DNA of 47,430 nucleotides from a virus: the IMG/VR virus record IMGVR_UViG_3300035698_011774, positions 1 to 47,430 of that record; one strand, 5' to 3'. Both the position numbers and the translations under genes were made by a program. Below, piece by piece: positions 10,949-46,652 of the stretch (positions are counted from its first letter, which is position 1; the number at the start of each line of letters is the position of its first letter). The notes under the pieces are model-generated. The model worked only from the letters and a program-made list of their open reading frames with translations, was not told the origin of the DNA and did not search any database.

Positions 10949-11353
10949 ATGAGAGTTATTAAAACCGCATTATACAAAAAAGTAGCAATTGATAGATACC
11001 CAACTACGCCAGGAAGACCAACCTGGAGTGATATGCCTTCAACTCAAGGAGATGATACAATTGAAGTGGAATTGAGTAGAGAAGGCGTTGAAATTCCGGT
11101 TATAGTTAGTTATTCTTATGAGGCAGGAGATCCGGATACTGGATTCGCTGCTGGTGCTGATCTATATGGTGCTACTGAAAGAGATACTGGTAAACCGGTT
11201 GTCCTTCAGCCTAATGAAGAAGAGTATGTCAAAAATAGGATAACTGAAGTTACCAGAGAACAGACGCAACAACCTGGATACGATGATTCTGGATCACGTT
11301 TTGACGGTGATTATTTAGAAGAATTACGTGGAGAAAAAGCAGAACCATGGTAA
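10949..11353 (+). CDS. Hypothetical protein (134 aa)
   Basis: AGGAGA lies 6-7 nt before the ATG, a strong ribosome binding site. It starts MRVIKTALYKKVAI, a short basic/hydrophobic leader resembling those on other proteins of this module. The middle includes a beta-rich stretch (EIPVIVSYSYEAGDP). The gene ends in a TAA that overlaps the next ATG at 11347. No family recognised. Confidence 0.55.
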   Translation: MRVIKTALYKKVAIDRYPTTPGRPTWSDMPSTQGDDTIEVELSREGVEIPVIVSYSYEAGDPDTGFAAGADLYGATERDTGKPVVLQPNEEEYVKNRITEVTREQTQQPGYDDSGSRFDGDYLEELRGEKAEPW

Positions 11354-17744: not shown

Positions 17745-18006
17745 AATGTCATATGTCCATGGGAGTAAAACATGGTTTAAGAAAGGCATCTTAACGTAAG
17801 CAATGACTAGACTAATGAGAAGTTTTATGAAAAAGAAAACAATATCTACCAGCATAAAATGCTATAAGAACGGTACGAATTCCTCCCGAGTTTTGCCCTC
17901 TTCTGGGACCGCCGATCCCGATGTATCTTCTGATACTAAGCATAATGTTGCTTGTCTACGGGGAAATACTGGTGACAGTGCCAGACCGAATGTCGGTAAT
18001 CACACT
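17745..18006 (+). ncRNA. omegaRNA/HEARO-like RNA of the isrB locus (locus B)
   Basis: Directly upstream of and overlapping the isrB open frame, where IscB/IsrB guide RNAs lie. An outer stem (17748-17752 with 17803-17807) encloses hairpins CCATG/CATGG (17757-17775) and TTAAGA/TCTTAA (17777-17794). Further hairpins are CTGG..CCAG near 17970 and CCGA-ATG-TCGG near 17990. The fold and the block at 17879-17904 match locus A. In this family the guide lies 5' of the scaffold, so the candidate guide is the roughly 16-20 nt before 17745. The 3' end should be close to where the conserved protein begins (18007). Confidence 0.6.
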
Positions 18007-28300: not shown

Positions 28301-29454
28301 ACCCTGACAGAACTTGTACGGAAGGTGGAGAGAGGCGTCATGACGGAGGACGAAGGCGTTATACAGAACAGGAGGCTGCCATCATGAGACATGGATATAT
28401 TGGTAAAACCGATGAACTGAACCATCTAGATTTCAGTAAACTGGAAGGTTTGCTCGACAAGCAGGCTAATGATATTAAGTCAAAGCCAGCACAAGAAGTG
28501 GCCCCAGGACCGATTAGCGGTAAAACAAAGATCGGTGATGAAGATGCCTTCACAGCCGACAAGCCATCTGCACCGTCAAAGGGTGATGCTTCTAAAATTA
28601 AGAATGAAGAACCCCCAAAGGCAGAAAAAGCAACTGCACCTGTGTCTGATGCTAGAATGGGTGGAGAAAAATCTGAACCTGACTTGAAGCCAGAACTTGA
28701 TGATGTTGCAACTGGTGGAGACGAAGGTCAGGGTACTTCAAGAGCAGCATCAACGAAGGAAAGAATCAACCGTTTGGCAGATTCCATTATTGCACAAACG
28801 CAGATTAAGAGGAAGCAGGACCAAGATGATGAAGACACAAAACCATATTCCGGTGATAGTTTCATCGGTGGTGAAAAGGATTCAATCGGTGATATACCCG
28901 ATTCAAAACCTGCTGGAGAACAAGATATTCCTCGTAATGAAGCCTTTATTGGTAATGAAAAAGAATCAATTGGTGAAAAACCAAGTGAAAAAGATATGCC
29001 TGATATCCCAACAAAGGATGACAGGATTGGTGGAGAAACAGATAATGAAGTTTTGAAACCAGAAAAAGATGATGTTGCAACTGGAAATGTAAAAGAAATG
29101 TCTGCATCGACAGAAGTTAGTGGTGAAGCAATCCGCCTTGCTGGTAGAATGCTTCAGGATGGGAAGATCGGAATCAACGATCTTTCAATGAAAATTGCCG
29201 AATTGCAGCGTTACGAAATAGAACAGTTAAAAGATTTTGAAAAGAATATTTTTGAGACAAAAGGACTTGAAGCAAAGTCTAGCGGTTTAGAGCAAGCACC
29301 GGTAATTTCTGAATCTGCTAATATACCAAAGACGGCATCTACTAAGGAAGAATTAGTGGATGCAATCCAAGGTATGTTTAAGTTAGATCGCAGAAACAAA
29401 CAGGCTCAGCAGGATGATGATATTCATCTAAGGAAAGAATTTGGGATGCTGTAA
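22384..29454 (+). CDS. Prohead protease fused to a giant scaffold-like chain, intein-containing
   Basis: 2356 residues; AAGGAAA precedes the ATG. The N-terminal protease resembles T4 gp21/S80-type prohead proteases: the FTNHQNDDVEKAKGK motif has His97 and VEGSSMGC has Ser147/148. A Cys-rich segment (CCSICHNK..YCDHI) follows once the intein (22834-24045) is removed. The rest, about 1800 residues, is mostly acidic. It has an ITEKQ repeat region (25057-25440), Asp/Lys tracts, a zinc-ribbon (CHVC...CNNC, about 26552-26620), Pro/Ala/Gly linkers and long Glu/Gly-rich blocks. Such a chain fits a scaffold or core cleaved by its own protease. An internal ATG at 24985 with AAAAGGAAAA upstream could yield a separate scaffold product. 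Confidence 0.82.
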   Translation: MINKPVIKLAIQSIEPLNKPDWAEYNLTRIKVASIDKSKDLAGFDLEAAKQEHPDHLFVKVFAIREDEVNDNGDAFSKSELQKAYQTFVGVPIFTNHQNDDVEKAKGKCVHSWYDEKAGGIYIISMIDKVAYPRLARGISERYVEGSSMGCFPGEMRVLLSSGKYKQIKDIRQNDHVITHKGNIKPVINVQRHLDKEDDFVYDIKVEGLPNIISSTKEHPFYVLKTHNKCFITGDDIPVANGYNRFKRRTKFGVYQKEEYAVAVKNRELEKYDFEWKTAENLTTRDMVAFPISDYTKNHEDATQEKARLIGYFLAEGSYLKYKGEKTAVEFNFSLSERNTLVKEVDKLLRLAFPGFRNEPKIQYRPKRNTCMIRLYGKDIAQWFYKYCGEYSHEKRLFGPTLYWPKEIQTHIVATWINGDGTRRRICHKKNKKIYDNLVGTTCSETLLYQMRFILSRLGIYSTINHRKAINMTKCTRDRYDLSMGSAESKKLNGYVCAAKRCYGSYKRTWFRKADSYMVMPIKKITKKYNTEPVYNLQVQDDHSYIVEGVAVKNCAVDYSCCSICHNKSNVADEYCDHIRNQKSRKISAVVPCKYHESKNQPKDDCPICGQSYSEYKVGSVNKFKHSESQVYEWNYGIKFIEDSFVVNPACHDCLVQDILNPDAINRKIADIQKKLDKMKKVASCTTGCNLEKFAGEKELNFLEEAMNKIIVVSKSLMAQNKQVSMEYVSNLVDVLANLQTTADELTEMGYGELPSPDPSAVENMEVPSEEELTEETQQPVPEQPQGSTMQPQIPPAGQPVVTQPAPGVMTEQFGDLGSVTKPKFSAVVRKKKEDFLQASAIIVDKLDELQEKYTEMENTHKKENTTMSDTKQGKSEPTIEKVAGPEHRVDVINEKQLDDAEFTGERQDEKYPKVITEKQMNDPERDVNVTTSESPQPRQDDSPNVITEKQFNSISGTHVTRWDDFPNVITEKQWTETSRRLGSELSKDQSNIITEKQLIDFLDHHRYVERNTITEKQLNDDALTTTGDLSRWAYVYDADRLVKSAAEAMSDAIAYYGYTPDEIKQASAFITESPRNRNKAAYLTLINALPHKKAARDNEKARYEYFAKTANKEVRPEVVDALILSMADAVSDMSADDLIDTVSHVAYSDKAFVKVDKMASDKMNSTKEKKDGGSKMNALKNAIADLGTDKEDDGLYEVRAHLDDLGVTDDSDTNEVSKAAYNFANKKIAESVGEAVDTALMNVKTNKETGQVVSLLKEASKLTTEESEAWGQAKTAWNFDKKKDDDKDDDDDKKDDDKDDDDDKKDDDKESEATEDTKTAAREEIVKEAQLLGGEMGGQAGAAQGPGAGAAAPQPPEAGGAPLESFEDSDLGGELEGEGDLQPKPPGTFCHVCTSEDVDVAGGQGRCNNCGARWTNEIVTKTLEWPETLETAKEPAIGEDEEFGEEGGFEMPEVPEPGAAAPPPMPAAPAMPAAASTDNNKMTKTAAAEYADFAEFMRKHGKFASTTRITSEMISKAEESKIALGSVSPFTGSTNTIKLANGDRVCLDTGSSYTVEYRVHKDDPKKVYARWVWNPDGAKVGCSQCERGRLAFVEALSKHDITEAAFDAMGLKEKGDTILQMKTAGSIKTIKTASKEKNVLSMVKEASVSLEADDFPMESCVQKLANRYGEDAVALSGPCEGKNLADCVCKSLKKAGVYSNGLALKVADVWKDKSSISECLEDFVRLGHDLKTASSICEAMKTKYAQFDDEFTEDVEGVIDEDPEFVEDEFGGEDDFGMGEEISPFEDEGMEELGGDDVAKALADLTRALGKEDAVSDELSGGGDLGVEPEGEMVVDVTDEIMPGEEGGIEEEIGIIDDIPGSPEENAIEEEVGIEEDECAGGAVAPMEGGEVAPEGDIEGGELAPAKGGEVEVEVEVENDDDDDDRLHRNRRNDNAGVLNEEETDEKVEKEGDDDDDNDDDFRGSRPRNKDNPDRTCTEGGERRHDGGRRRYTEQEAAIMRHGYIGKTDELNHLDFSKLEGLLDKQANDIKSKPAQEVAPGPISGKTKIGDEDAFTADKPSAPSKGDASKIKNEEPPKAEKATAPVSDARMGGEKSEPDLKPELDDVATGGDEGQGTSRAASTKERINRLADSIIAQTQIKRKQDQDDEDTKPYSGDSFIGGEKDSIGDIPDSKPAGEQDIPRNEAFIGNEKESIGEKPSEKDMPDIPTKDDRIGGETDNEVLKPEKDDVATGNVKEMSASTEVSGEAIRLAGRMLQDGKIGINDLSMKIAELQRYEIEQLKDFEKNIFETKGLEAKSSGLEQAPVISESANIPKTASTKEELVDAIQGMFKLDRRNKQAQQDDDIHLRKEFGML
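22834..24045 (+). mobile_element. Prohead-protease intein with LAGLIDADG endonuclease
   Basis: 404-residue in-frame insertion between GSSMG and CAVDYSC. It begins with Cys (CFPGEMRVLLSSG) and ends VAVKN before Cys, so the penultimate residue is Lys rather than the usual His; Asn is kept. Block B-like TKEHP and block F-like YNLQVQDDHSYIVEGV are present. The two LAGLIDADG motifs are IGYFLAEGSY and VATWINGDGT. It sits two residues after the catalytic-Ser motif, so splicing is needed for protease activity. Confidence 0.92.
25057..25440 (+). repeat. Six-fold I-T/N-E-K-Q repeat in the scaffold-like chain
   Basis: Within about 130 residues, six copies of (V/I/T)I(T/N)EKQ(L/M/F/W) occur, spaced roughly 15-30 residues apart by acidic, Asp/Pro-rich spacers. 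The spacers differ but the pentapeptide is nearly invariant. T4-type prohead proteases cut after (L/I)-x-E, and I-T-E fits that rule, so each repeat could be a maturation cleavage site. Site function is inferred. Confidence 0.6.
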
Positions 29455-30228: not shown

Positions 30229-31499
30229 TAACTATCGCCACCACCTTTAATGGGTGGTGAAAAAAAACGCTATATGCAGGAAAATCCTGAGATTTTTTTC
30301 CGACTAATAAGGTAACACAGGAGAGAAAAATGGACAACCCGCAGGAAACTGAAAATTTAAACATAAAATGGCTTGCCGGTTTTTTCGATGCTGAAGGTTC
30401 AGTTGGTTTTAATGATAAACCAATTATTACGATTATGAATGTTTGTCCCAATACGTCTTTTGTTATAAAAGATACGATGATAAAAATAGGAATTATTCCT
30501 GACACTCATATAAGAGAGAAACCTTCAAAAAGTAGTAAGAAATTAAGATGGAATCTATTTCTTAGATATGAAGAACAAATTTTACCTTTTTTGAAATATG
30601 TTAAACCATATGTAAAAGGTAAGAAAAAACAATTAGAATTATTAGAAGAATGGTATGAAAATCAATCAGAAACAATTCAAGACAAATTATTTTTTGCTAA
30701 TCAAGTTTGTAATTACATTATTTGTAATCCGCAAAAAATTATGCAAAGATTAAAAATAAATAGTCTTGAACAGTATGTGGATATACCAGTTTTAAATGAC
30801 GATGATGGATATATCATTACGAATAATTTTAATTGTTTGGAATATTGTGCAGGATTGCTGGATGCTGATGGAAGTTTTAATTTAGACTTCATGTCAATAA
30901 AAGGTAAAAGCAAATATACTCCACAAATAATTTTGATGAACAAAAATAAAGAAATAATTAAAAGTTATTGCTCCGTTCTGACGAATAATAGTATTGGATG
31001 TCATGTTCTATTCAATACAAGTGAAAAAAAAGCGGATAAAAGAAAATGGAAAATAACAGTATCAGGATGTAAAAGATGTATAAAAATGCTAGAATTAATA
31101 ACATCGAAAATTCATACTAAAAGAGAGCAAGCCAATCTTCTGTTACAATATTGCAGATATAAATTAGAAAATTCCTCTAATGCTAATGATATCACTGGTT
31201 TTGAGTGTAAAAAAGCGTTGGAAGGAATGAAGAAAGGTTTTTATGTTTAAGAACAAAATCCTCAACGACTGTATGCGTTTTATCGTAATTTAATTAAAAT
31301 CTACTTGTAGATTTTAATGACGATAGTGAGACAGTCTGATCTGCATGGTAACATGCAGAGATAAGCAGAAATGACTTATCCCTTGATTTTGTATATACAT
31401 GCTTAGAAATTTCAAGTATAGTTAAAAAATTATAAGTCTATATATACAAGTATATTTAGAAGTTGTAAGTATATATATAATCAAGAGTAACAAATTGTG
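30229..31499 (+). ncRNA. Group I intron 1 in the MCP gene
   Basis: About 1271 nt between MCP exons 1 and 2, with a LAGLIDADG ORF inside. Core elements by eye: a hairpin CACCACC/GGGTGGTG near 30239-30260, a P-type element TATGCAGGAAAAT near 30273, and CCTCAACGACTGTATGC (31259-31275) with its partner AGACAGTCTGATC (about 31330) as P7-type strands. The P9-type hairpin CTGCATGG-TAA-CATGCAG follows. The stretch AATCCTCAACGAC is shared exactly with intron 2. I could not find a convincing P1 pairing, so the 5' splice site is set by frame and may be off by a base or two. Confidence 0.75.
30330..31250 (+). CDS. LAGLIDADG homing endonuclease in intron 1
   Basis: 306 residues, GGAGAG about 6 nt before the ATG. 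Two LAGLIDADG motifs, LAGFFDAEGS near residue 15 and CAGLLDADGS near residue 174, make it a double-motif monomeric enzyme with both catalytic acids present. Its length and the basic residues after each motif fit the family. It would cut the intron-less MCP allele near the exon 1/2 junction and drive intron homing. It is translated from within the intron; some such proteins also help splicing. Confidence 0.9.
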   Translation: MDNPQETENLNIKWLAGFFDAEGSVGFNDKPIITIMNVCPNTSFVIKDTMIKIGIIPDTHIREKPSKSSKKLRWNLFLRYEEQILPFLKYVKPYVKGKKKQLELLEEWYENQSETIQDKLFFANQVCNYIICNPQKIMQRLKINSLEQYVDIPVLNDDDGYIITNNFNCLEYCAGLLDADGSFNLDFMSIKGKSKYTPQIILMNKNKEIIKSYCSVLTNNSIGCHVLFNTSEKKADKRKWKITVSGCKRCIKMLELITSKIHTKREQANLLLQYCRYKLENSSNANDITGFECKKALEGMKKGFYV

Positions 31500-31760
31500 G
31501 TTGAGCCAATTCGCAGAAGTTTGGAGTATCAGGCTGTAGGTCGTAAGTTGCTGATGGTTGACGAGCTGCCCCAAGGTGCTCTTGCTCGTTATGAGCGTGA
31601 TGTAGCCGCGATTGCACACGTAGTTTCGCGTCGTGGTGCTGTACCTGACCAAATTCAGGAAGGTGAAGAGGTTCTTGTTCCTACTTTTGAAATTGCCGCA
31701 CATCCCACAGTTCGTATGAGTGAGATCAAGGCAAGACGATTCTATATAGTCGATCGTGCT
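31500..31760 (+). CDS. Major capsid protein, exon 2
   Basis: 87 codons, VEPIRRSLEYQAVGRKLLMVDELPQ and onward, ending FYIVDRA. This is the conserved N-arm/E-loop region of a widespread large-phage MCP group (YERDVAAIAHVVSRRGAVPDQI, EIAAHPTVRMSEIKARRF). Codon usage here is less AT-rich than in the flanking intron, as expected for a highly expressed gene. The exon ends with T at 31760, the base before the intron 2 splice site. Confidence 0.85.
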
Positions 31761-32792
31761 AAACTGATTTGGGCACGTAAGACCGCCATATGCTGGAAAC
31801 TCTCGAACTTGACGATAAGATTAAGATAGGATAATACGGATAAAAACAAATTATTCCTAAACGAGACAATCAGCAGGAAAGGCTTTGGATATAAAATATG
31901 GATAAAAGAAAAAAAGCATTAATAAATGAAATAAAGCACTGTATATTGAAAGAAAAAATATCAATTAGTGAAGTGTCAAGAAGAACTAAATTGACTAGAA
32001 GAACAATAGTAAAATGGATGAAACAAGAAGGTATATTGAATAAGAATGCATGGATATTTAAATCTCCGGACAAAATATCAAAAATGCAATTACAAGTATT
32101 AAGAGGAACCGTTTTAGGGGATGATTGTATATACATTTTCCCGACATGTGTCAATCCTAAATTACTTGTTTACCATTCTATCGCTCAGAAAGAATACGCA
32201 AATTTGAAATTACAAATATGGAAAGATTTTGTATTTGCTGATAAACTGAAAGTCAGCAAAAGGAAAAAAGGTACGAGAGTACATTTTGAAACAGCTGTAC
32301 ACAAAGGTTTTTTACCAATATACAATGCTACATATATTAATAAAAAGAAAACAATCACAGCAGAATTTTTAGAAACACTAACTCCATTATCACTGGCTTT
32401 TTGGTTCCAGGATGATGGGAGTAGATGTAAAAATCGTGGGTTAACAATACATACTAATTGTTTTTCCTTAGAAGAAGTGGAAATTTCTTGTAGTTTTTTG
32501 AAAAACAGATATAATATTAAATGTAATCCACAACGAAGGAAAAAAGATCAATATGTCATATTTTTTAGTAATGCTACTAGTAAAAATTTCGCAGAGATGA
32601 TATTACCATGGGTACACCCATCGATGAGATATAAGTTAGAAGGTATATATCCGAAGAATCCTCAACGACCATACGCGGTCCCTTTTAAGTTCGAAAATCT
32701 TAAAAGTGAAGATATGGTCTCCTCTGCATAGCGATATGCAGCCTGTAAAACAGGAAAACTTATTAATGAAAAAATGAGTTTTAAGATACTTG
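31761..32792 (+). ncRNA. Group I intron 2 in the MCP gene
   Basis: 1032 nt. P1 is clear: exon end CGTGCT (31755-31760) pairs with intron GGCACG (near 31773), giving the required U-G at the splice site. The core follows: TATGCTGGAAAC (P element), AATCAGCAGG (Q element), CCTCAACGACCATACGCGGTCC and GAAGATATGGTCTCC (R/S elements of P7), then a P9-type hairpin CTGCATAGCGATATGCAG. The intron ends in G at 32792. Removing it joins GTG-CT to CAG in frame (VDRA-QIKAKEAIQ). An endonuclease gene lies between the core halves. Confidence 0.9.
31898..32731 (+). CDS. LAGLIDADG_2-type homing endonuclease in intron 2
   Basis: 277 residues. An N-terminal helix-turn-helix (ISEVSRRTKLTRRTIVKWMK, about residues 22-42) precedes a LAGLIDADG DNA endonuclease core of the organellar/phage type. 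The two motifs are LRGTVLGDDC and SLAFWFQDDGS. It differs from the enzyme in intron 1, so the two introns acquired unrelated endonucleases. The C-terminal coding end overlaps part of the intron core (through the conserved P7 strand), a common compaction in such introns. Confidence 0.87.
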   Translation: MDKRKKALINEIKHCILKEKISISEVSRRTKLTRRTIVKWMKQEGILNKNAWIFKSPDKISKMQLQVLRGTVLGDDCIYIFPTCVNPKLLVYHSIAQKEYANLKLQIWKDFVFADKLKVSKRKKGTRVHFETAVHKGFLPIYNATYINKKKTITAEFLETLTPLSLAFWFQDDGSRCKNRGLTIHTNCFSLEEVEISCSFLKNRYNIKCNPQRRKKDQYVIFFSNATSKNFAEMILPWVHPSMRYKLEGIYPKNPQRPYAVPFKFENLKSEDMVSSA

Positions 32793-33302
32793 CAGATTAA
32801 AGCCAAAGAAGCTATTCAAAAGGAAGAGGACACGAACATTTTTAACGCTCTGATTGCTGCTGCAACAACTCTGGGAACCCAGATCGTAACTAACGTTGGT
32901 ACACTAAGTGTAACTTCGTTGAACACCGCGTATCGTATGATCGAGGAACACGATTTGGTTACAACTAAAGTTGTTATGCATGCTCGTCAGTTCGCTTCAA
33001 TCCGTATTTTGGGTAAAGATTTCTATGATGAGGCAACTCAGAGAGAAATCATCACAACAGGGTTATACGGTCATTTATGGACCGCTGACCTTCACGTGTC
33101 AAGTCGTATGGACGTAACCACGGTTATTTGTGTTGCATCCCCAGATACAGTTGGAGCTTTTCCGATTCGTCAGGATATTACAGTACTACCAGCAGACGAT
33201 CCTAAGAAAATCCGTTTGGGATGGGTAATCTACGAAGAGATCGGAATCGTAATCTTAAATGATTACGCTATCAGTCTAATCGAGGTAACCGCTGGTTCGT
33301 AA
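32793..33302 (+). CDS. Major capsid protein, exon 3
   Basis: 169 codons plus stop. It starts QIKAKEAIQKEEDTNIFNAL, continuing the capsid spine helix from exon 2. It ends in a P-domain/beta-tongue region (GLYGHLWTADLHVSSRMDVTTVI) and a hydrophobic C-terminal strand (EEIGIVILNDYAISLIEV). A strong terminator follows 14 nt after the stop, marking the end of the head operon. The TTG at 32790 belongs to the intron and is not a start. Confidence 0.85.
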   Translation, partial: QIKAKEAIQKEEDTNIFNALIAAATTLGTQIVTNVGTLSVTSLNTAYRMIEEHDLVTTKVVMHARQFASIRILGKDFYDEATQREIITTGLYGHLWTADLHVSSRMDVTTVICVASPDTVGAFPIRQDITVLPADDPKKIRLGWVIYEEIGIVILNDYAISLIEVTAGS

Positions 33303-33316
33303 AGGATTTATAGCAC

Positions 33317-33353
33317 TTTAAAGAGAGCCGCCAATTAGGCGGCTCTCTTTAAA
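33317..33353 (+). terminator. Strong intrinsic terminator after the MCP
   Basis: A perfect 16-bp inverted repeat (TTTAAAGAGAGCCGCC, loop AATTA, and its complement) with a T-rich 3' arm. Because the stem is a full palindrome with A and T tracts on both sides it can work in both directions. It isolates the highly expressed MCP from the endonuclease gene downstream. The following 155 nt up to 33508 are AT-rich with no clear promoter that I can defend. Confidence 0.9.
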
Positions 33354-33508
33354 TATATACATATTTAGCCACTATTGTATATACAATCACATCTACGAGT
33401 ATAGATTTTTCTCAAAAAATGTAAGATTTCTTGAAAGTTTTTCTTGATAATTGCCGATACATAATGTAGAGACGCACTTAATGTGAAATTTTTAAGGAGT
33501 TTACAATC

Positions 33509-34498
33509 ATGAGAGAACAACCACATTACACTAATTTGTTGACTAAGGAATTTTTCGAACTACATTACGAACAAGAGAGAATGTCATTCCCGGATATTAA
33601 GAAGATGCTCGATAAACAGGGACACAATATCGTAACTAGTACGATATATAGTTATGCTAAAAAGTTTGGTATTGGACGATCAATCGCAGCAGGTCGAGCA
33701 GACCTAGATTATAGCAAAACTTTTATGACAGAGGAGATTGTAGAAGCGGTTGACGGTTTTATTATTGGAGATGGTGGCATCACTTCAAAAGCAGGATGCC
33801 CGTCTGCAAGATTAAGTTGCGGAGTAGAGCATGAAGAATTTTGTATATACATGATGGACCATTTTACAGATTATTGTGTATCTTATAAGAAACGTATTGA
33901 CGACACAATGAAACAAGGATTCGTATGGAGAAGTACCACTAAACATCACCCTGATATTCAACAGCAGTATCTTCGTTGGTATCCTGAAATCAATGGTAAG
34001 AGAACGAAGCAGCCACCTAATGATGTAAGGATTACCCCTCTTTCTGTTATGATGTGGTATCTTGGAGACGGCTCCGTTGTTGTTAATAACAAGTCCAATA
34101 CTATTATGCTAAGGTTGTCAACTGATAGTTTTTTACCGGAAAAAGTAGAATTTCTGGTTGATAAATTAAATGACATTTCAATTTATTGCCATAGGACAAA
34201 AGAAAACAGAATAATGGTTGACGCCAAAGGCATCCCTGCCTTTTTTAATTTTATTGGCAAGAAATCCCCAATAAAATGTTATGATTACAAATTTGACAGA
34301 GTTCCCATATGGAGATTTTCTTCGAAAAGAATGTCAGAAGTTGCTGAAGAAATTGGTGTATCATATGGACGATTGTCTTATTTGGTTAAACAAGGAAAAA
34401 TTGGTTGCTATAGAGCGAGCGAGAGAGGAAGACCTCGTTTATTGCCTGAACATGTTGAACAAGCCATAGAACTTATCTATGAAGGTTCATTGTATTGA
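33509..34498 (+). CDS. Free-standing LAGLIDADG homing endonuclease
   Basis: 329 residues, AAGGAG about 9 nt before the ATG. Two motifs, DGFIIGDGG (near residue 88) and VMMWYLGDGS (near residue 184), place it in the LAGLIDADG_2 group, like the intron 2 enzyme but with different flanks. The N-terminus has a DNA-binding-type helix-turn-helix (FPDIKKMLDKQGHNIVTSTI). The C-terminal ~50 residues resemble a MerR/excisionase helix-turn-helix (MSEVAEEIGVSYGRLSYLVK). No intron core is visible around it, so it appears to be free-standing, next to the most conserved gene of the genome. Confidence 0.85.
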   Translation: MREQPHYTNLLTKEFFELHYEQERMSFPDIKKMLDKQGHNIVTSTIYSYAKKFGIGRSIAAGRADLDYSKTFMTEEIVEAVDGFIIGDGGITSKAGCPSARLSCGVEHEEFCIYMMDHFTDYCVSYKKRIDDTMKQGFVWRSTTKHHPDIQQQYLRWYPEINGKRTKQPPNDVRITPLSVMMWYLGDGSVVVNNKSNTIMLRLSTDSFLPEKVEFLVDKLNDISIYCHRTKENRIMVDAKGIPAFFNFIGKKSPIKCYDYKFDRVPIWRFSSKRMSEVAEEIGVSYGRLSYLVKQGKIGCYRASERGRPRLLPEHVEQAIELIYEGSLY

Positions 34499-34523: not shown

Positions 34524-35705
34524 ATGAAACAAGAGAGTATTATCGTAAGGGTTAATTCTGAAGAACACAATTTAATTAAAGACAAATCTGCTTTATGTGG
34601 GCAAAAAAAATCTGCATTCATTCGTGAAGCATGCTTTGTTCATTTGCCTGAATCAAAAAATAGTGAATATTTTAAAAAACTTTTGAAAGAATATCAGGAT
34701 GGAGATGATGACAGAAAACAATCAATTGTCAACATTTTATTTGAATATTATCGTAGAACTGGTTATCCTCATAATTTTTTGACAGATGAACAAAAAACAA
34801 AGAGGATGAGACAATTGAGAAAAACCACTTGTAAATTGACTGATCAAAATGAAATATCTCGTAATTTCGTCGCTTTAGATTTAGCAAATTTTTTCCATCC
34901 ACATCTCGTCAAGGTCAAATCTAAATGGTTTGACACCCCTCACAGTCGTTATGTGGACGATGATGGCCTAAAGGACTGTATCGCAAGGTGGATGGACCTG
35001 GACAAGGTTCCTAGCCCCTCTGGTATACGCCGGATTCTACGTACTCGAAACGGCGTCAAATCTGCCGTCAATTTCAAACCTGCTGTCGCAAAATTGATTT
35101 ACGAGAGATATGCTCCTGATTATGGAAAAGTTTTAGACCCTTGTTCTGGATTTTCCGGCAGATTAGCCGGATGTATTGCTTCTGGGAAGAATCTTCATTA
35201 TTATGGAATTGATCCTGATCACAGGACTGCTCGTGGTAATATGGAATGTGCATCATTTTTTCATGGTGTAATAGATGATTTATTTGAGGAGAGGGAATTC
35301 AAATTTGGATTTACATTTGATATTGGTTGTGCTGAGGAGGTTATGGAGAATTATCGTGATTCATATTTTGATTTAATATTTACTTCTCCTCCTTATTATT
35401 CTACTGAGGAGTATTCTACTGATGGTAGTCAGAGCATGCATCGGTATTCGAGTTATGAGGAATGGAGAAGGGAATTTTTGTTTAAGGTCTGTGTTGAGGC
35501 TTTGCGTATATTGAAGGTTGGTGGATATTTTATTATGAATTTGAAGAATTACGCAAATTACAAAATTGCTAATGATTTTAAGATATATTGTCAGAGGAAG
35601 GGGTTTGTTCTTGTTGAAGAATTGGGGATGACCTTATCTAATAGTGAGTATAATAGGGATAGGGGTTCTTATCATACTGAACCTATTATTGTGTTGAGAA
35701 AGTGA
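34524..35705 (+). CDS. DNA methyltransferase (SPPY class) with ribbon-helix-helix-like N-terminus
   Basis: I choose the ATG at 34524 (AAAGGGA upstream) over the in-frame ATG at 34479 inside the previous gene. The SAM-binding motif I is LDPCSGFSGRLAG and the catalytic motif IV is TSPPYYSTEEY, typical of amino (N6-adenine or N4-cytosine) methyltransferases. The first ~45 residues (SIIVRVNSEEHNLIKDKSA..KKSAFIREACF) look like a ribbon-helix-helix DNA-binding module. No restriction enzyme is adjacent, apart from a possible PD-(D/E)XK protein at 36032. Self-modification against host restriction is the likely role. Target unknown. Confidence 0.82.
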   Translation: MKQESIIVRVNSEEHNLIKDKSALCGQKKSAFIREACFVHLPESKNSEYFKKLLKEYQDGDDDRKQSIVNILFEYYRRTGYPHNFLTDEQKTKRMRQLRKTTCKLTDQNEISRNFVALDLANFFHPHLVKVKSKWFDTPHSRYVDDDGLKDCIARWMDLDKVPSPSGIRRILRTRNGVKSAVNFKPAVAKLIYERYAPDYGKVLDPCSGFSGRLAGCIASGKNLHYYGIDPDHRTARGNMECASFFHGVIDDLFEEREFKFGFTFDIGCAEEVMENYRDSYFDLIFTSPPYYSTEEYSTDGSQSMHRYSSYEEWRREFLFKVCVEALRILKVGGYFIMNLKNYANYKIANDFKIYCQRKGFVLVEELGMTLSNSEYNRDRGSYHTEPIIVLRK

Positions 35706-35765
35706 TTGAGTTTTTAATTATTTTCTGTTGTAGTATTTAATTTTGCGGAAAAAATTATTTCACAG

Positions 35766-35819
35766 CCTGGATACAGGGTTGAAGATATTCGGTCTCCGCT
35801 TTGTATTCAGGTTTTTTTT
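35766..35819 (+). terminator. Intrinsic terminator after the methyltransferase
   Basis: An imperfect inverted repeat CCTGGATACA ... TGTATTCAGG with a 26-nt loop, followed by eight T residues (35812-35819). It separates the methyltransferase from the tagged small-gene array that starts at 35856. Confidence 0.7.
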
Positions 35820-35855
35820 CTTCATTTTGATTGTCTTTCTAGTCGATATTATTAT

Positions 35856-36029
35856 ATGACGATACCCGAAGATGCCGCATTTGAAGAATATTTCTCTTTG
35901 TTACTTGCTGAGAAAAGATTTGGAGAAGCAGTAGTATTATTATCAGACAAAACACGCGATAAATACTATAGATATTTATATAGCGATTTTGAAGAAAAAA
36001 TAAAAGATAGGATAGACGAGGAAATTTAA
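35856..36029 (+). CDS. Array protein 1 (57 aa), C-terminal KIKDR tag
   Basis: First member of the tagged small-gene array. An acidic helical N-terminal part (about 40 aa) is followed by YSDFEEKIKDRI near the C-terminus, then four extra residues. There is no strong SD. The next gene begins 2 nt after its stop. The tag, not the N-terminal part, links it to the genes downstream. Confidence 0.6.
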   Translation: MTIPEDAAFEEYFSLLLAEKRFGEAVVLLSDKTRDKYYRYLYSDFEEKIKDRIDEEI

Positions 36030-36031
36030 AA

Positions 36032-36562
36032 TTGGGCAAACAAAAAAAGTACATCGATCCAATCTTGGAGGATCGCAGACGCCAAGAGATAAACAATGAA
36101 AAATATTTTCATACTTATTTGAGTACAATATTTAATTTAACATGTGAAAAACCGGATTATTTATTACCATATGGATATGAATTAACTCCTGATTTTGTAG
36201 TTTTACAGAAACGAATAATCACATACGTATTTGAGGTCGTTACTCTCCATATCCCTGATAATAAAGATGAAGGCCGTAAAAGTACAGCAAGGATTTTCCG
36301 GACTTTACAAAAAAAAAGAGACAAGTATAAAAAATTGGTTACAAAGGAAGCATCTAAATTTATTATATGTCTCGCATTAGATCCTAGAATTACCATTGAT
36401 GATCATTCTTTTTTGTCTGTATCTCAAGATATTTTTCGTGGCGTGGATGACCAACAAATTAGAACACACGTAAGTGGGATTTTATTAAAACGAGAAAATG
36501 GTCTTGGTCCTATATTTTATCAGAATCTTAACGCCAAGCAGCGTGTTTATGTACAATTCTGA
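36032..36562 (+). CDS. Possible PD-(D/E)XK nuclease-fold protein (176 aa), TTG start
   Basis: It starts at a TTG with GAGGAAA about 8 nt upstream, inside the end of array gene 1. The segment ELTPDFVVLQ..YVFEVV (Asp54, Glu68) fits the PD...E core of restriction-like folds, but the usual Lys after Glu is replaced. The helix with RKSTARIFRTLQKKRDKYKKL that follows is also typical. It lacks the array tag. Beside a methyltransferase two genes upstream, it could be a nuclease, but activity is uncertain. Confidence 0.5.
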   Translation: MGKQKKYIDPILEDRRRQEINNEKYFHTYLSTIFNLTCEKPDYLLPYGYELTPDFVVLQKRIITYVFEVVTLHIPDNKDEGRKSTARIFRTLQKKRDKYKKLVTKEASKFIICLALDPRITIDDHSFLSVSQDIFRGVDDQQIRTHVSGILLKRENGLGPIFYQNLNAKQRVYVQF

Positions 36563-40885: not shown

Positions 40886-41124
40886 AGATGAAAATACACA
40901 AATTAAAGATAGGTGATCTTATAGAATACACTCGCGGTGATGGCATGGTAGTTTGTGGAAAAATAGAGAATATATATGGTGTAGAAGAAACATATTTTAG
41001 CGTTCGTTGGGATGACATGAGTGACCTATCATGGGACCATAACGCCGGAGACATGTTAAGATTTCTTCATCGTGGACCTTATCCTGAAGATTTTTTTGAA
41101 AGAATAAGGGACAGATTAGGGTAA
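40882..41124 (+). CDS. Array protein 22 (80 aa), SH3-like + tag; last gene of the array
   Basis: MKMKIHKLKIGDLIEYTRGDG start, YFSVRWDDMSDLSWD strand, tag PEDFFERIRDRLG. It converges with the minus-strand ArdC-like gene and the two coding ends overlap by 9 nt, so no terminator separates them. Confidence 0.7.
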   Translation: MKMKIHKLKIGDLIEYTRGDGMVVCGKIENIYGVEETYFSVRWDDMSDLSWDHNAGDMLRFLHRGPYPEDFFERIRDRLG

Positions 41125-42429
41125 TCCTGTCTGTTCTCCCATATCCATTTCTGCCGCTTTTTTATTAATCCCCGTAATTATCGTTTTAACTGATTTAGAT
41201 ATAGCTTCTCTTCTTCTTCTCACATCTGCTCCTGTTCCTTGCCACAATGCGATATATCTTGGCGTATCCTTTGTTTCAAAACTATAATGATTAAGAACTA
41301 TAAACGCTGTTGATTCTGCGTCAATTTCTAAATCTTTTCTTGTCAATGTTTTTCTTTCTTTTTTACCTTCCAATGACCAGTGTAGAATTTCGTGAGCAAG
41401 TTCGTGGACTAACGTGCTAAATTTGTTAATACCATCGAATGTGTCATTAATTCTTATCTTTTGACCAGCTGCGTATCCACCTAATTCTGTTTGCATTTCT
41501 TCTGTTCCCATATCTATTCCTAATTCCACTGCCCAATCCCAAGCCGAATTAATGAGGAATGTGATTTCTTCTAATTGTTCGTTGGGATCTTGTCTCCATT
41601 CTTTAGGTTCATAGGGGCCTTCTCCTTCTTTCCCTTTCCATCCGGCCATAGCTTCTGTGTCTGCAAAATCATAGACAATAGCCGGAACAAAGTACATATA
41701 CTCATGTTGGCTTCTGTTTGGAAAATTAAACCATTGATCTGTAGACATCGTTGCTTTTAGTTTTTTACCTTCTTGTGTTAGGCCTGTTCTTGGGGCTATA
41801 ATTTCTATTTTATTTCCCCAGTTTGTAACCTGTCTTCCGAATTTAGCCATCCATTGTTTTGCTCCTGCAACTTTAATAGATTTTGGATTTTGGAACCAGA
41901 TTAGAATTTGGTTTCCAAAACTGTAGTTGTGGAATTTGGCCGCGAATGATAGATAGCTTCTTACGAATTCGGTTGCGGCTTCAGAGTCTACTCTTAATGC
42001 TAATTCATTAATCATCTTGTGGGCATAATCTATAATGGCTTTTGCTTTATCACTTGCTTTTCCGGCTTCTCCTTTTGCTTTTTCTATACCTGCTTTCATT
42101 TTATCCAATTCTATTTCTACTGGTGATTTTGGTTCTGTTGGTACGGCAGGTGGGGCTTCTATCTGCGGTTGTCCTTCTTGGGCGTCTGGAGAATCAAGAA
42201 GTGATAGATCGAGGTCTAAGGCTTCTAATGCTTGTCTTTTTTCTGGAGTGATGAATTTGATTGCTGTTGACCACGTTCCTTTGAAAAATCTGAATCCAAG
42301 GCTTCTTAGTGTGTCTTTGATTGCGAATGTATTTCCCATTAATGCTAGGAATTTCATGCCAGTTTTTTTGTTGACAGTAATTCCAGCTTGGACTCCTTGG
42401 GCTATTTTAACTATTTTATACCAGTTCAT
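41116..42429 (-). CDS. ArdC-like antirestriction protein with zincin (HExxH) domain and MNWYK tag
   Basis: 437 residues. Residues 1-10 are MNWYKIVKIA, the tag shared with the next three genes. Residues about 31-53 (MGNTFAIKDTLRSLGFRF..GTW) form a small domain often found before DNA-processing domains. Residues about 150-255 match the ArdC N-terminal ssDNA-binding domain (SFGNQILIWFQNP, AGAKQWMAKFGRQV..KIEIIAPR). A metallopeptidase with HELAH (342-346) and downstream EIDAEST follows. ArdC proteins protect incoming DNA from restriction. GCGGAGA lies about 5 nt before the ATG, preceded by the intergenic T-run motif. Confidence 0.8.
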   Translation of the reverse strand: MNWYKIVKIAQGVQAGITVNKKTGMKFLALMGNTFAIKDTLRSLGFRFFKGTWSTAIKFITPEKRQALEALDLDLSLLDSPDAQEGQPQIEAPPAVPTEPKSPVEIELDKMKAGIEKAKGEAGKASDKAKAIIDYAHKMINELALRVDSEAATEFVRSYLSFAAKFHNYSFGNQILIWFQNPKSIKVAGAKQWMAKFGRQVTNWGNKIEIIAPRTGLTQEGKKLKATMSTDQWFNFPNRSQHEYMYFVPAIVYDFADTEAMAGWKGKEGEGPYEPKEWRQDPNEQLEEITFLINSAWDWAVELGIDMGTEEMQTELGGYAAGQKIRINDTFDGINKFSTLVHELAHEILHWSLEGKKERKTLTRKDLEIDAESTAFIVLNHYSFETKDTPRYIALWQGTGADVRRRREAISKSVKTIITGINKKAAEMDMGEQTGLP

Positions 42430-42446
42430 TATTTCTCCGCAAAAAA

Positions 42447-43103
42447 TTATACATAACTATATTCTCTGTCTTCCACTTCAACTCCTGGAGTTGGAGAAAC
42501 GGGATTATCTTCTGGTTCATCGTTGTCATCTCCTCCTCCAAAATAGAAATTATTAATTGTTGTTTTTACATATTGTCCTACTTCGTAAGGAGTTTTCAGT
42601 TGTCCTTTATCGCTTTCTCCTATTTCTTCGATATTGAAGTACCCTTTATTTCGTGGCTCTATTCTTGCTCCCCACAGCACAGTTGTAAAGTCTATTAATT
42701 CATTTCCTGTTTCTGAATTATATTCATTGGCTTCCATTGGTTTCATTTGGTCCAAATAGTATTGTCTGAATTCCATGGTGTCTTCAAATACTGTTGGTGT
42801 CATATCTGGTTCATCCCATCCTCTTGTCATCCCATAAGAACCTTCGGACGGATGGACAACATGAGGGGCTTTTCTAATATAAACATATGTTTTGATATGG
42901 AACCAATCTCCTGGCATAACGACATCTGTACCTGTCAATTTACATCTAAATCTTTTTTGGTCTTTGTATCCTGGTGCTAAGTTTTCTGTTTCTATTGTCC
43001 AATTTCCGTTGTTCTGTAATTGGATTGATTCAAATATATGTTGGCACATATCGCCTACAGGTATCATCTGATCCGCTAGTTTTATCTGTTTATACCAATT
43101 CAT
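42447..43103 (-). CDS. MNWYKQIKLA-tagged hypothetical protein (218 aa)
   Basis: It starts MNWYKQIKLADQMIPVG. The rest is beta-rich with several aromatic residues (WTIETENLAPGYKDQKRFRCKL, WFHIKTYVYIRKAP) and an acidic, Pro-rich C-terminal tail. No domain recognised. Its ATG overlaps the stop of the upstream minus-strand gene at 43103. It shares only the first ten residues with its neighbours, so the leader is a transferable signal rather than a sign of overall homology. Confidence 0.62.
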   Translation of the reverse strand: MNWYKQIKLADQMIPVGDMCQHIFESIQLQNNGNWTIETENLAPGYKDQKRFRCKLTGTDVVMPGDWFHIKTYVYIRKAPHVVHPSEGSYGMTRGWDEPDMTPTVFEDTMEFRQYYLDQMKPMEANEYNSETGNELIDFTTVLWGARIEPRNKGYFNIEEIGESDKGQLKTPYEVGQYVKTTINNFYFGGGDDNDEPEDNPVSPTPGVEVEDREYSYV

Positions 43104-43444
43104 TAATGAAAAATCACCATATGAGGATTATTAAAAGCCTTATCTAATATCGATTTTATTTTATTTTCCACGAAAGCGTATCTATCAGGATTTTCATGTT
43201 TAAAACTAATAACAGCACTTAGCATATGTGTTCCTGGAACATATCTCCCAGTTGCAAAAACATCTTTTACTGGACCTGATGTCATAGCCTCATATTCATG
43301 ACAATTATTAGACATAGTATCCCAAGTGACCAGTTTAAAATCTGAGTCTATGAACCATAAGGTCACTTCAGTAGGATTATCCTCGTTATGTCCAATATCT
43401 GTATAATAGATAGCGGCTAATTTTATTTGTCTATACCAATTCAT
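43103..43444 (-). CDS. MNWYRQIKLA-tagged hypothetical protein (113 aa), paralog of the next gene
   Basis: It starts MNWYRQIKLAAIYYTDIGHNED. The body (VTLWFIDSDFKLVTWDTMS, VFATGRYVPG, ISFKHENP) aligns throughout with the protein encoded at 43444-43848, so the two are tandem paralogs. No known domain. Stop and start overlap with both neighbours in a minus-strand operon. Confidence 0.65.
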   Translation of the reverse strand: MNWYRQIKLAAIYYTDIGHNEDNPTEVTLWFIDSDFKLVTWDTMSNNCHEYEAMTSGPVKDVFATGRYVPGTHMLSAVISFKHENPDRYAFVENKIKSILDKAFNNPHMVIFH

Positions 43445-43848
43445 TATCTAAATACCGTAATTTTTGGATTGTTAAATTCCGCATCTATTATGGATATTAC
43501 TCTTTTTTCTAGATAATCGTTTTGTTTGGGATTCTCGTATTTGAAATTTATTGCAATGCTTGCGACATCAGATGACGGGTCATATCTACCACTTGCGAAA
43601 ATCTTTTGATCCCGTTCATTCATCCGTTCCCAATCTTCATGAGACTGATCAGACGTTGTTTCCCAGGTAAAGAGAATGAAGTTAGAGTTTACAAACCATA
43701 AGACCACATCCACTGGCTTGCCTCTAATATCATAAATGTCTGGGGCTATCTCTATTTTCTCTTTCCTGCCATGACCTATGTCCATAAACGACAAATCATT
43801 ATTTGGCACAACTGGAAAAGCTAATTTTATCTGTCTATACCAGTTCAT
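43444..43848 (-). CDS. MNWYRQIKLA-tagged hypothetical protein (134 aa)
   Basis: I start it at 43848, where the product begins MNWYRQIKLAFPVVPNN like its three neighbours. The frame stays open for 54 further codons upstream, but that part overlaps the opposite-strand pseudopilin gene and has no matching leader. Body strands VVLWFVNSNFILFTWETTS, IFASGRYDPS and INFKYENP match the 113-residue paralog. First gene of the four-gene minus-strand operon. Confidence 0.68.
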   Translation of the reverse strand: MNWYRQIKLAFPVVPNNDLSFMDIGHGRKEKIEIAPDIYDIRGKPVDVVLWFVNSNFILFTWETTSDQSHEDWERMNERDQKIFASGRYDPSSDVASIAINFKYENPKQNDYLEKRVISIIDAEFNNPKITVFR

Positions 43849-43939: not shown

Positions 43940-44647
43940 ATGATCAAAAAAGCCTTTACATTAATTGAGATGTTAGTAGTCGTTACAATTATATCTGTAC
44001 TATTAGCCATTCTATCTCCATCTGCTAGAATGTCTGTAATCAGAGGGGAGATGACCGAATGTGCCCATCATATGAGGCAATTAACGATTGCATGGCAACA
44101 GCACTCCGTAGAACATCGAATGGTTTTAGTAGAATCGAATACGCATAATGGATGTTGGGCCGCTAGTAGTAGTCAAGGCGGAAATACGATTGAAGGGATG
44201 ACTGTGGGGGAATTATGGCCTTATATCCTAAACATAGATATATATAGTTGTCCGACTCCTGTTTATGATTATTACATTACATATGCTTTGAGTGGAATGC
44301 TACATGGAGAGGGAGGCTTTAGTGGTAGGGTCTTTAAATGGATGCATATCACAAATCCCAGCGAAATTATGTGTTATATTGAAGAAGATGATTATCGTGG
44401 TTATAACATGAACTCATTTATGTGTTCCAGTCAGCCTGGAAAATGGATTGATTATGTTGCTGGCAATCACGATGGTGGTGATAATATTTCGTTTTGTGAT
44501 GGTCATGTTGAATATCACAAGTGGCTAGATCCAGATACCCTAACATTTCCCTACCCGCCATCCGGTGAAGGCACCAGGAGTCATGGGTATGTTGATGCGG
44601 GAAGTGTTGACGTTGAATACCTTCAAGAAATTTTTTGGCAATACTGA
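43940..44647 (+). CDS. Prepilin-like protein with H-X9-DG motif (type II secretion pseudopilin type)
   Basis: 235 residues, GGGAGA about 8 nt before the ATG. The N-terminus KKAFTLIEMLVVVTIISVLLAIL is a type IV prepilin signal and transmembrane helix, with Ala instead of the usual Gly before FTLIE. Near the C-terminus, NHDGGDNISFCDGHVEYHKW contains the H-X9-DG processing-associated motif of large prepilin families of Planctomycetes, Lentisphaerae and Verrucomicrobia. This is host-type sequence inside phage genes, so it was probably acquired from the host. It could change host pili or display a surface protein. Divergent from the MNWYR operon. Confidence 0.8.
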   Translation: MIKKAFTLIEMLVVVTIISVLLAILSPSARMSVIRGEMTECAHHMRQLTIAWQQHSVEHRMVLVESNTHNGCWAASSSQGGNTIEGMTVGELWPYILNIDIYSCPTPVYDYYITYALSGMLHGEGGFSGRVFKWMHITNPSEIMCYIEEDDYRGYNMNSFMCSSQPGKWIDYVAGNHDGGDNISFCDGHVEYHKWLDPDTLTFPYPPSGEGTRSHGYVDAGSVDVEYLQEIFWQY

Positions 44648-44938: not shown

Positions 44939-45691
44939 TTGAGACTATTATCTAAACAATCCGGGTTTTTTTCTGAACCAGAGATAGAAAAACCAAAATT
45001 CATATCTCGATATAAACCTGGAGATATTGTTGAATTTACCTATAAAGGCCAGACAAGAACTGCCCCTATTTTATTTGTCAATCAAGATAGAGAGCGTATT
45101 GTTGTAGAATTTGCTGGTGAGCAAGTTGAATTACACGAGTCAAAAGTCAAAAAAGTAGAGGATACTATGCCTATGTTCGCATTTGAAAGTATATTTGATT
45201 TAGGATTATTCAAAATAGCAAAAAAGAGAAAAGACAAAAGTCCAGGTGGATTAGCGGACAAAAAAGACCCATCTGATTTTGATTCAAAATCTTTAGAAAA
45301 AGGCATAAAAACAGAATTAGAACATACAGATGATAAAGATTTAGCAGAAGAAATCACTATGGATCACCTTGAAGAACATCCAAAATATTATGATGAAGAA
45401 TTTTTGCCAACAATGGAAGAAGAGTTAACAAAAGATGAAAAAAAATTAGAAGCTGCAACCACATATTTCGACCTTATGAAAACTGCCAAAGAAAAAGATG
45501 ACAAGTGGATACAAGATGCAGTTCCCAAATCCCATGAAGGCAAATTTGGTAAATGGTGTAAGAGTAATGGGTTTAAAGGAGTTTGTCAATCATGTATAGA
45601 TAAAGCCATTGGCCAAGGAGGAAATTCCAGCAAAATGGCCAATTTCGCTATTAACGTTTCTAAGGGGAAATATAACCATCCGAAATCATAA
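44939..45691 (+). CDS. DUF5661-like protein (250 aa), TTG start
   Basis: TTG start with AGGGAA about 8 nt upstream, immediately after the orphan RNA. Three parts are visible. An SH3/KOW-like N-terminus (YKPGDIVEFTYKGQTRTAPILFV) comes first. A central region (DPSDFDSKSLEKGIKTELEHTDD..AEEITMDHLEEHPKYYDEEF) matches the DUF5661 pattern. The C-terminus (WIQDAVPKSHEGKFGKWCKSNG..CQSCIDKAIGQGG) is of a type found in many phage proteins. Role unknown; DUF5661-type proteins are frequent among large-phage structural genes. Confidence 0.65.
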   Translation: MRLLSKQSGFFSEPEIEKPKFISRYKPGDIVEFTYKGQTRTAPILFVNQDRERIVVEFAGEQVELHESKVKKVEDTMPMFAFESIFDLGLFKIAKKRKDKSPGGLADKKDPSDFDSKSLEKGIKTELEHTDDKDLAEEITMDHLEEHPKYYDEEFLPTMEEELTKDEKKLEAATTYFDLMKTAKEKDDKWIQDAVPKSHEGKFGKWCKSNGFKGVCQSCIDKAIGQGGNSSKMANFAINVSKGKYNHPKS

Positions 45692-45830: not shown

Positions 45831-46652
45831 ATGAAAGCAAAGTGGATTCACAAAATAGAAACATCATCACGCTGTAATCTAAAGTGCCCATATTGTCCCC
45901 ATTCAAAAGGATTATCATACGGCAATGGCAATATGTCCCAAGATACATTTGATAGAGTTTGTTATTGGGCAAAAATTCTTAATCCTTCAGGACAACCAAA
46001 TGATGAACATATTGTATGGCTTCATGGAATAGGAGAACCTTTACTAAATCCCAATATACTAGACTTTATTAAGCAACTAAGCCAAATAGTTAAAGTTGGG
46101 TTAAGTACGAATGGTGTATTGATAACACCTAAACTGGTGGAACAATTTAGCCACTCTGGATTATCACATCTTACAATTAGCCAACATAACAAGCAAATAA
46201 CAGAAAAAGTTTTGAAAATAATAAAAGAAGTTAAAATGTCTCAAATATTTACGCTTGATATCCAATCTGCATTTAATGATGATTGGGCAGGGCAAATAAA
46301 CGAAGATGATGTCCCGAATAAAGACAAAACAACATTCCCATGTGCTCATATCGAAAAAGGTGGAGTTCATGTTCTATGGAATGGGAATATTGTTAATTGT
46401 TGTGTTGATTCTCAATCTTATCCCATTTTAGGAAGTGTCTATGATGATGAAATTAGAAATATCGATATCGAGATTATTCCTCTGTGCAAAAATTGTAGGA
46501 GTGGTAAATCTGTTGTACAAAAAGAATTACGACAATATTCTAATAGTTTGACTCAAGAAGAAAAACACAAGTTATTGTGGAAACAAGTAAAAGTAGATAT
46601 CGAATACAGAAATAGACCAGATTATTATGCTTTAGGAATAGAACAAAAATGA
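45831..46652 (+). CDS. Radical SAM / SPASM-like enzyme
   Basis: 273 residues, GAGGAGA about 7 nt before the ATG. The 4Fe-4S motif is C-NLK-C-PY-C (Cys15, Cys19, Cys22), followed by GIGEPLLNPNILDFI and the STNG strand, hallmarks of radical SAM enzymes. The C-terminal part has further Cys (FPCAH, NCCVD, CKNC) as in SPASM auxiliary-cluster domains. Substrate unknown. The stop overlaps the start of a glycosyltransferase gene, so both may act on a sugar, peptide or nucleotide modification pathway. Confidence 0.85.
   Translation: MKAKWIHKIETSSRCNLKCPYCPHSKGLSYGNGNMSQDTFDRVCYWAKILNPSGQPNDEHIVWLHGIGEPLLNPNILDFIKQLSQIVKVGLSTNGVLITPKLVEQFSHSGLSHLTISQHNKQITEKVLKIIKEVKMSQIFTLDIQSAFNDDWAGQINEDDVPNKDKTTFPCAHIEKGGVHVLWNGNIVNCCVDSQSYPILGSVYDDEIRNIDIEIIPLCKNCRSGKSVVQKELRQYSNSLTQEEKHKLLWKQVKVDIEYRNRPDYYALGIEQK

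Follow-up and report, generated by a model that had tools for sequence, protein, structure and literature searches.

An N-terminal leader shared by unrelated proteins of very large, mostly uncultured phages resembles a capsid-targeting sequence with a head-protease site

Four adjacent genes in a 47.4 kb stretch of viral DNA (IMG/VR virus record IMGVR_UViG_3300035698_011774, henceforth referred to as the window, whose positions serve as coordinates unless another record is named) encode proteins that begin with the same short leader, MNWY[KR]. This leader is probably a capsid-targeting sequence (CTS) with a prohead-protease site, analogous to that of the T4 internal proteins, and packaging, cleavage and injection of the proteins that carry it are predicted from sequence. 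What was observed directly is that the leader exists, recurs on unrelated protein bodies and is confined to phages, that a matching motif occurs in the head proteins and protease of those phages, and that Bacillus phage G offers a parallel. An earlier note on this DNA had proposed a head-targeting leader of the T4 or P1 kind; the proposal is supported as a hypothesis, since its four sequence-checkable predictions (recurrence, phage restriction, a shared head site and cargo type) hold.

Results

Four tagged open reading frames in the window

The four open reading frames (ORFs) lie side by side on the minus strand between 41116 and 43848, and the MNWY[KR]xxK[LI]A start that the earlier note had described was confirmed in each of them from the sequence. 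The ORFs and their leaders, with the next residue in parentheses, are as follows.

41116-42429, minus strand: tagged ORF, ArdC-like, 437 aa (ArdcN-type region and HELAHE zincin motif)
42447-43103, minus strand: tagged ORF of 218 aa without a known family (profile searches)
43103-43444, minus strand: tagged ORF of 113 aa, 'DIGH' family (homologue alignment)
43444-43848, minus strand: tagged ORF of 134 aa, paralogue of 43103-43444 (alignment)
42400-42429, minus strand: leader MNWYKIVKIA(Q) of the ArdC-like ORF, ending in K-I-A-Q (sequence; K-x-A-Q is the enriched head-module site described below)
43074-43103, minus strand: leader MNWYKQIKLA(D) of the 218 aa ORF (sequence)
43415-43444, minus strand: leader MNWYRQIKLA(A) of the 113 aa ORF (sequence)
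43819-43848, minus strand: leader MNWYRQIKLA(F) of the 134 aa ORF (sequence)

The longest ORF at the last of these loci opens at 44010, and the ATG of MNWYR lies at 43848. A six-frame search of the window returned these four leader copies and no fifth. The bodies are three unrelated proteins plus one paralogue, as had been claimed: the 113 and 134 aa proteins are 44% identical, and the other two are without evident similarity to this pair or to one another.

Assignment of the 437 aa protein as ArdC-like is weak by profile (Pfam ArdcN PF08401, E = 0.0044, 17.6 bits against a curated cut-off of 22.6) and is supported by the HExxH motif, seen in the sequence as HELAHE (LVHELAHEILHW). A PDB search with this ORF gave no match, close relatives sought in viral contigs were not found, and a single-sequence AlphaFold model made without an alignment was unusable (pLDDT 36) and left the fold unconfirmed. 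The 113 aa DIGH protein gave an AlphaFold model with a pLDDT of 82.6, for which a structure search of PDB and BFVD returned no match at E ≤ 0.001. DIGH-family homologues with an NWYK leader were aligned from contigs G003, G017, G021 and G028. A tandem array of leader-bearing DIGH paralogues occupies positions 12505-19808 of contig L017 (G003 69505-76808), and one array member is a two-domain fusion in which K-T-A is retained and MNWY is lost at the junction.

The DNA encoding the leader varies synonymously among the window ORFs (AAC/AAT, AAA/AGA, CAG/CAA, CTA/TTA, GCC/GCG/GCT), and the 24 bases upstream of the four leaders are mutually unrelated. Because synonymous sites differ and the upstream sequence is unrelated, it is the peptide rather than the DNA that is conserved. 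Synonymous codons vary freely in the leaders (AAT 50, AAC 48; AAA 80, AAG 18). These data bear on the alternative that recombination has copied and spread a 5' gene module (a ribosome-binding site or a translation enhancer) and with it the common start, the peptide itself having no function. In-frame copies within tandem paralogue arrays (G003) speak for such copying, but the free variation of synonymous codons, the lack of upstream conservation and the presence of the peptide at junctions and C-termini of fused proteins speak against it; the copied module was rejected as disfavoured by codon variation, and we regard it as scarcely credible.

Recurrence of the leader and its restriction to phages

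The leader pattern ATGAAYTGGTWYMR matched 12 of the 12 records tried and ATGAAYTGGTAYAAR matched 22 of 27 further records, with 0 matches to the reversed control in each case, which puts the recurrence far above chance; more leader records were found by a degenerate DNA scan of IMG/VR. The resulting set, limited to ORFs of at least 60 aa with MNWYKxAQ- or MNWY[KR]xxK[ILV]A-type starts, holds 153 tagged ORFs in 97 body families on related large phage contigs, which bears out recurrence on many unrelated cargo proteins. The G003 record alone has 12 exact leader copies within 13 kb.

The near-invariant part of the leader after M1 is W3, Y4 and K5. Two length forms were seen, MNWYK-x-A-Q and MNWY[KR]-xx-K-[ILV]-A, which differ by three residues, or about one helical turn. 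The MNWY(K/R)xxK(L/I)A of the earlier note stands as a shared start but not as a fixed decapeptide: the unit is NWYK with K-x-A either adjoining it or set about one helical turn further on. With DNA patterns that ended at the fifth codon and presumed nothing on later residues, continuation as KxA[QS] or KxxKxA was found in 29 of 78 N-terminal copies vs 0 of 44 internal copies (p = 3e-7).

Among 84,980 bacterial and archaeal genomes MNWYKxAQ occurred in 4 places, each in an ORF of at most 25 aa, and the leader is in this sense confined to phages. Extra copies of the site or the tag lie at domain junctions or C-termini of fused cargo proteins (KKYAQ in L334, SWYKQAQ in L080, NWYKTAQ in G012 and G036, ENWYRRAQ in G033), while the tagged bodies as a whole show no K-x-A-Q enrichment (8 vs 6.3 expected). 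A literature search for MNWYK turned up no paper.

The head module and its K-x-A motif

Of the 20 contigs examined, 13 have the same head module as the window, made up of terminase/protease, portal, the 15857 protein family and major capsid protein (MCP). Contigs that lack the full module have 7 to 60 proteins in common with the rest and probably represent pieces of similar genomes. The leader-bearing phages belong to one family, whose members are very large and mostly uncultured, and the tailed-phage hallmarks MCP, portal and head maturation protease are all present in the window. Its head-module features are listed below.

11347-11997, plus strand: head-module protein with the start MVRIISTNKFAQ (sequence)
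12015-13436, plus strand: head-module protein with the site NIKTAQ before FVGGQGYW (K-x-A-Q-[YF]-[VI]-G in ten homologues listed, which were picked by this very pattern)
15857-17221, plus strand: head-module protein with FNLHKTAQ, KKLAQ and NWKEAS sites (sequence)
19048-21843, plus strand: portal protein with intein (phrog_16240, E = 8e-39; Pfam)
22384-29454, plus strand: head maturation protease with a long C-terminal scaffold-like region and an intein (phrog_18299, E = 4e-7)
22474-22485, plus strand: KVAS (within IKVAS), predicted autoprocessing site before the protease domain ([KR]-x-A in 13/13 homologues)
31497-33302, plus strand: major capsid protein, divided in two by a homing-endonuclease-like ORF (phrog_2522, E = 5e-17 and 3e-30)

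The motif K-x-A-[QS] is enriched 4-5-fold in head-module proteins, with K-x-A-Q found 122 times vs 25.5 expected and K-x-A-S 178 times vs 43.6 expected, and the residue between K and A is preferentially T or V. Motifs with permuted or substituted residues stayed at 0.6-1.7 times expectation, the glutamate-ended K-x-A-E was enriched merely 1.6-fold, and non-head proteins of the same contigs gave 1.9-fold for K-x-A-Q and 1.05-fold for K-x-A-S. Since counts from homologous families are non-independent, the window was also tested alone: K-x-A-[QS] occurred 28 times vs 4.7 expected, which 0 of 1000 shuffles reached, and the reversed motif once vs 4.8 expected. The 15857 family contributes 32 K-x-A-Q sites vs 2.1 expected, in FN[LVW]-type contexts; in the 12015 family K-x-A-Q-[YF]-[VI]-G is placed ahead of the conserved part; and the MCP family has zero K-x-A-[QS] sites. 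FNLKKxxQ was tried as a separate structural-protein motif and rejected, being one context of K-x-A-Q. As a positive control, T4 head proteins were put through this unsupervised scan: I-x-E, one half of the known [LI]-x-E site, ranked first, and K-x-A-[QS] was not enriched (3 vs 1.6). The site enriched in the present phages is K-x-A-[QS], which is also the leader end, and not the T4-type [LI]-x-E. In Myrna-like mycobacteriophages the protease domain matches, but their head proteins have no clear K-x-A-[QS] enrichment (5 vs 3.0) and the MNWYK-type leader pattern gave no match.

The protease polyproteins carry the same motif. In all 13 of them [KR]-x-A stands directly ahead of the protease domain, and the window polyprotein has 14 K-x-A-[QS] sites. 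K-x-[AS] falls within the first ten residues of 11 of the 13 vs 192 of 2318 control proteins (p = 1e-10), and several open in a leader-like manner (MAMYKRAT, MAFYKTAT, MSFMKKAK). The window protease starts MINKPVIKLA (MINKPVIKLAIQ), and its I7-K8-L9-A10 recurs at these positions in three of the four tagged neighbours. The leader of the tagged proteins typically ends in K-x-A, matching the head-protein motif of the same phages, and K-x-A is predicted to be the prohead-protease cleavage site, for which NIKTAQFVGG, TRIKVASIDK and MNWYRQIKLAFP are candidate peptides.

Intein/LAGLIDADG-type domains were seen in the terminase (3192-6299), the portal (19048-21843) and the protease polyprotein (22384-29454), and homing-endonuclease-like ORFs (30330-34498) break the major capsid gene into pieces at 31497-31829 and 32790-33302. 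An IscB-like protein with a RRTRRQRNCRRRKARF motif recognised by eye lies within the head module (17803-19014, plus strand).

Cargo of the tagged proteins

Pfam searches of 138 tagged proteins returned GNAT acetyltransferases (6), kinases of the AAA_33/polynucleotide kinase type (5), tRNA nucleotidyltransferase head domains (3), methyltransferases (3), ART-PolyVal (2), cREC (2), HicA (2), the 2'-5' RNA ligase type (2), anti-CBASS Acb1 (2) and anti-Thoeris Tad6 (1). Untagged proteins of matched length from these contigs, taken as a control, fell instead into replication, nucleotide and homing-endonuclease families; no tagged cargo domain was among their 25 most frequent families, though rare overlaps may occur below that rank. 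Set against this control, the ADP-ribosyltransferase (ART), GNAT, kinase, Acb1 and Tad6 bodies agree with the suggestion that the leader sits on enzymes of host takeover and counter-defence. Activities of these types have been proposed for injected phage effectors (PMC5512222, PMC7824862), and phiKZ injects Tad1 (PMC13282480). Most tagged ORFs are short and a few are fusions, so they are not polyvalent proteins in the multi-effector-domain sense.

The same cargo bears on two other explanations. Head targeting might serve mainly structural or DNA-associated internal proteins, with no effector delivery and no need for leader removal; many bodies are small or lack a known function, a few have the look of membrane or LysM proteins, and assembly guidance or head stabilisation has been considered for the SPN3US internal proteins (PMC10052503). 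The recognised cargo, however, consists mostly of enzymes with host or nucleotide targets, and the K-x-A at the leader end matches the head site; we consider this explanation unlikely. The leader could also be a common docking or regulatory peptide, bound by a phage chaperone, protease adaptor or shared antitoxin that holds the enzymes inactive until late. Toxin-like bodies (HicA, Zeta-like, ART) would suit such control, but G6PD or tRNA nucleotidyltransferase bodies hardly need it and the head-module motif and phage G parallel are left unexplained, which makes a docking peptide very improbable.

A parallel leader in Bacillus phage G

The nearest isolate found was Bacillus phage G (JN638751), whose MCP and protease are 55% and 48% identical to members of the group. 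Its head module contains K-x-A-S 12 times vs 2.2 expected, and K-x-A-Q once vs 1.0. A leader of its own, MKRL[IVMTRF]KK[AS], is repeated on ~18 unrelated proteins; the pattern [KR]RL-x-[KRST] occurred in residues 1-12 of 21 ORFs and in 1, 0, 1 and 0 ORFs in the next four 12-residue windows. Pfam identified a PARP-like ART and a ParB-like protein among the tagged bodies, and further bodies show an ART-like HGT motif by eye. Examples of proteins with the MKRLIKK[AS] leader are encoded at JN638751 positions 28218-28733, 35181-36314, 245985-246467 and 255911-256453. Virion mass spectrometry of phage G has been reported (PMC8570332).

The phage G leader is a different one, yet it ends in a form resembling the head motif of phage G itself, which fits targeting and cleavage and would be hard to explain otherwise. 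A further alternative is that the leader is a short amphipathic helix that addresses another phage-made structure (membrane, early vesicle, nucleus-like shell or replication factory), its likeness to K-x-A being incidental. Aromatic-basic N-terminal helices often bind membranes, and the leader is predicted to be helical in the one model, at residues 3-15 with low confidence. That alternative leaves unexplained the K-x-A-[QS] held in common with head proteins, the tag-like protease start and the different phage G leader with its matching site, and appears distinctly unlikely.

Other features of the window

A DUF5661 protein near the tagged ORFs has LGLFKIAKK before its domain, at the point where its G028 homologue opens with MNWYKQAK:

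44939-45691, plus strand: DUF5661 protein

Between 35856 and 41124 (plus strand) lie 19 small ORFs (53-121 aa) with a common DFxDKIKDRLx-like motif, C-terminal in 17 and N-terminal in two, a second and mostly C-terminal tag beside the N-terminal leader. Many of their bodies are KOW-like in look (FKVGDxVxY), and the motif was not found in the other contigs examined, bar one weak match. A 235 aa protein (43940-44647, plus strand) has a type IV pilin-like N-terminal motif (AFTLIEMLVVVTIISVLLAILSP); it presumably resembles the DUF1559-type prepilins of planctomycetes and may hint at the host. A Radical-SAM-like protein (CNLKCPYCPH; 45831-46652, plus strand) is adjoined by a glycosyltransferase-like ORF at 46649. 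The protein at 1135-3216 (plus strand) combines a long serine-rich repeat (SSSSS, NTPSS) with a LamG-like region at its end.

Discussion

In the favoured reading as a capsid-targeting sequence, the leader, being similar to the N-terminal end of the protease-scaffold polyprotein that the phage itself encodes, would dock on the prohead core as that end does and so carry otherwise unrelated proteins inside. Cleavage at K-x-A by the head maturation protease would then free the cargo, the cut lying most likely between A and the next Q, S or other residue, or right after that Q. Freed cargo would remain with the DNA, enter the next host and act at once on the host or its defences, as might be expected of ArdC-like antirestriction proteins, ADP-ribosyltransferases, acetyltransferases, RNA-repair kinases, Acb1 and Tad6. 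Core binding, cleavage, packaging, ejection and action in the host are all steps that we infer.

Several observations weigh against this account. Three of the four window leaders continue with D, A or F, not with the head-preferred Q or S, and the residue between K and A differs, being K, Q or I in leaders vs T or V in head proteins. K-x-A-Q is mildly raised in non-head proteins too, and the enrichment counts come from homologous families, a dependence that the single-genome tests partly answer. Finally, 44 of the 153 tagged ORFs have no [KRH]-x-A in residues 4-20, while ~70% carry it. Because this fraction lacks the motif near the leader end, targeting and cleavage may be separable in these leaders, as they are in T4 IPIII.

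A wider proposition is about evenly balanced in our judgement: phage-G-like huge phages may use general address labels, such that any enzyme could be recruited by a 7-10 residue leader copying the N-terminus of the protease-scaffold polyprotein. Leader and protease site would co-diverge by clade (MNWYKxA|Q here, MKRLIKKA|S in phage G, the bar marking the cut), and fused cargo would be freed as a polyprotein at internal tag copies. If this is true, injected counter-defence proteins could be listed in uncultured phages from sequence alone. The capsid-targeting reading, if correct, would make the leader a signature of virion-carried, injected proteins among the many unknowns of huge uncultured phages, and tagged proteins such as the DIGH family and dozens of unknown bodies candidate new counter-defence factors. 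It would also predict where a head-protease class yet to be characterised prefers to cut, and provide a short tag that could load foreign proteins into very large phage heads. What jumbo phages inject would become directly testable, phage G first.

Comparison with known systems

On a shared head-targeting leader in huge phages, literature searches yielded nothing beyond T4, P1 and SPN3US. In T4, gp21 cleaves the CTS of IPI-IPIII and Alt at [LI]-x-E; of the ten CTS residues, 4 and 7 weigh most in targeting and 8 and 10 in processing, and Alt is processed at both ends (PMC9026906). The present leader is similar in that about ten N-terminal residues are common to different bodies and end in a site enriched in the phage's own head proteins, in that the cargo includes an ADP-ribosyltransferase and an antirestriction protein, and in that the protease start may act likewise; both-end processing of Alt is paralleled by the tag or site copies at junctions and C-termini. 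It differs in sequence, in site (K-x-A-[QS] vs [LI]-x-E), in phage lineage and in its far more numerous and varied cargo, and is known here from sequence. By analogy, the view that the leader system works like T4 capsid targeting is supported as a hypothesis; homologous membership is unproven, as leader and site differ.

In P1, an N-terminal capsid signal of DarB, one of the Dar proteins, likewise places an antirestriction protein in the head (PMC9024508). The passage of that paper on the consensus of Dar N-termini gives no decapeptide common to them, 30 residues were used in testing the DarB signal, and no matching protease site is described (PMC9024508). Head and ejection proteins of SPN3US and phiKZ are cut at [AS]-x-E (PMC5694885, PMC9026906). 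These phages resemble the present ones in their large heads, prohead protease and many internal proteins, and SPN3US gp53 and gp54 have an identical 15-residue N-terminus; they differ in that several propeptides exceed 100 residues, no short leader on many unrelated bodies has been reported, and the cleavage site is another. Polyvalent proteins and early effectors, predicted to be packaged and injected, contain the same enzyme classes (ART, GNAT, ArdC-type metallopeptidase) but are multidomain, whereas the proteins described here are mostly single-domain with one common address tag (PMC5512222).

Phage G shares homologous MCP, protease and portal with the present phages, together with a K-x-A-S head module and an N-terminal leader on unrelated proteins, and differs in that its leader is MKRLIKK[AS] and not MNWYK.

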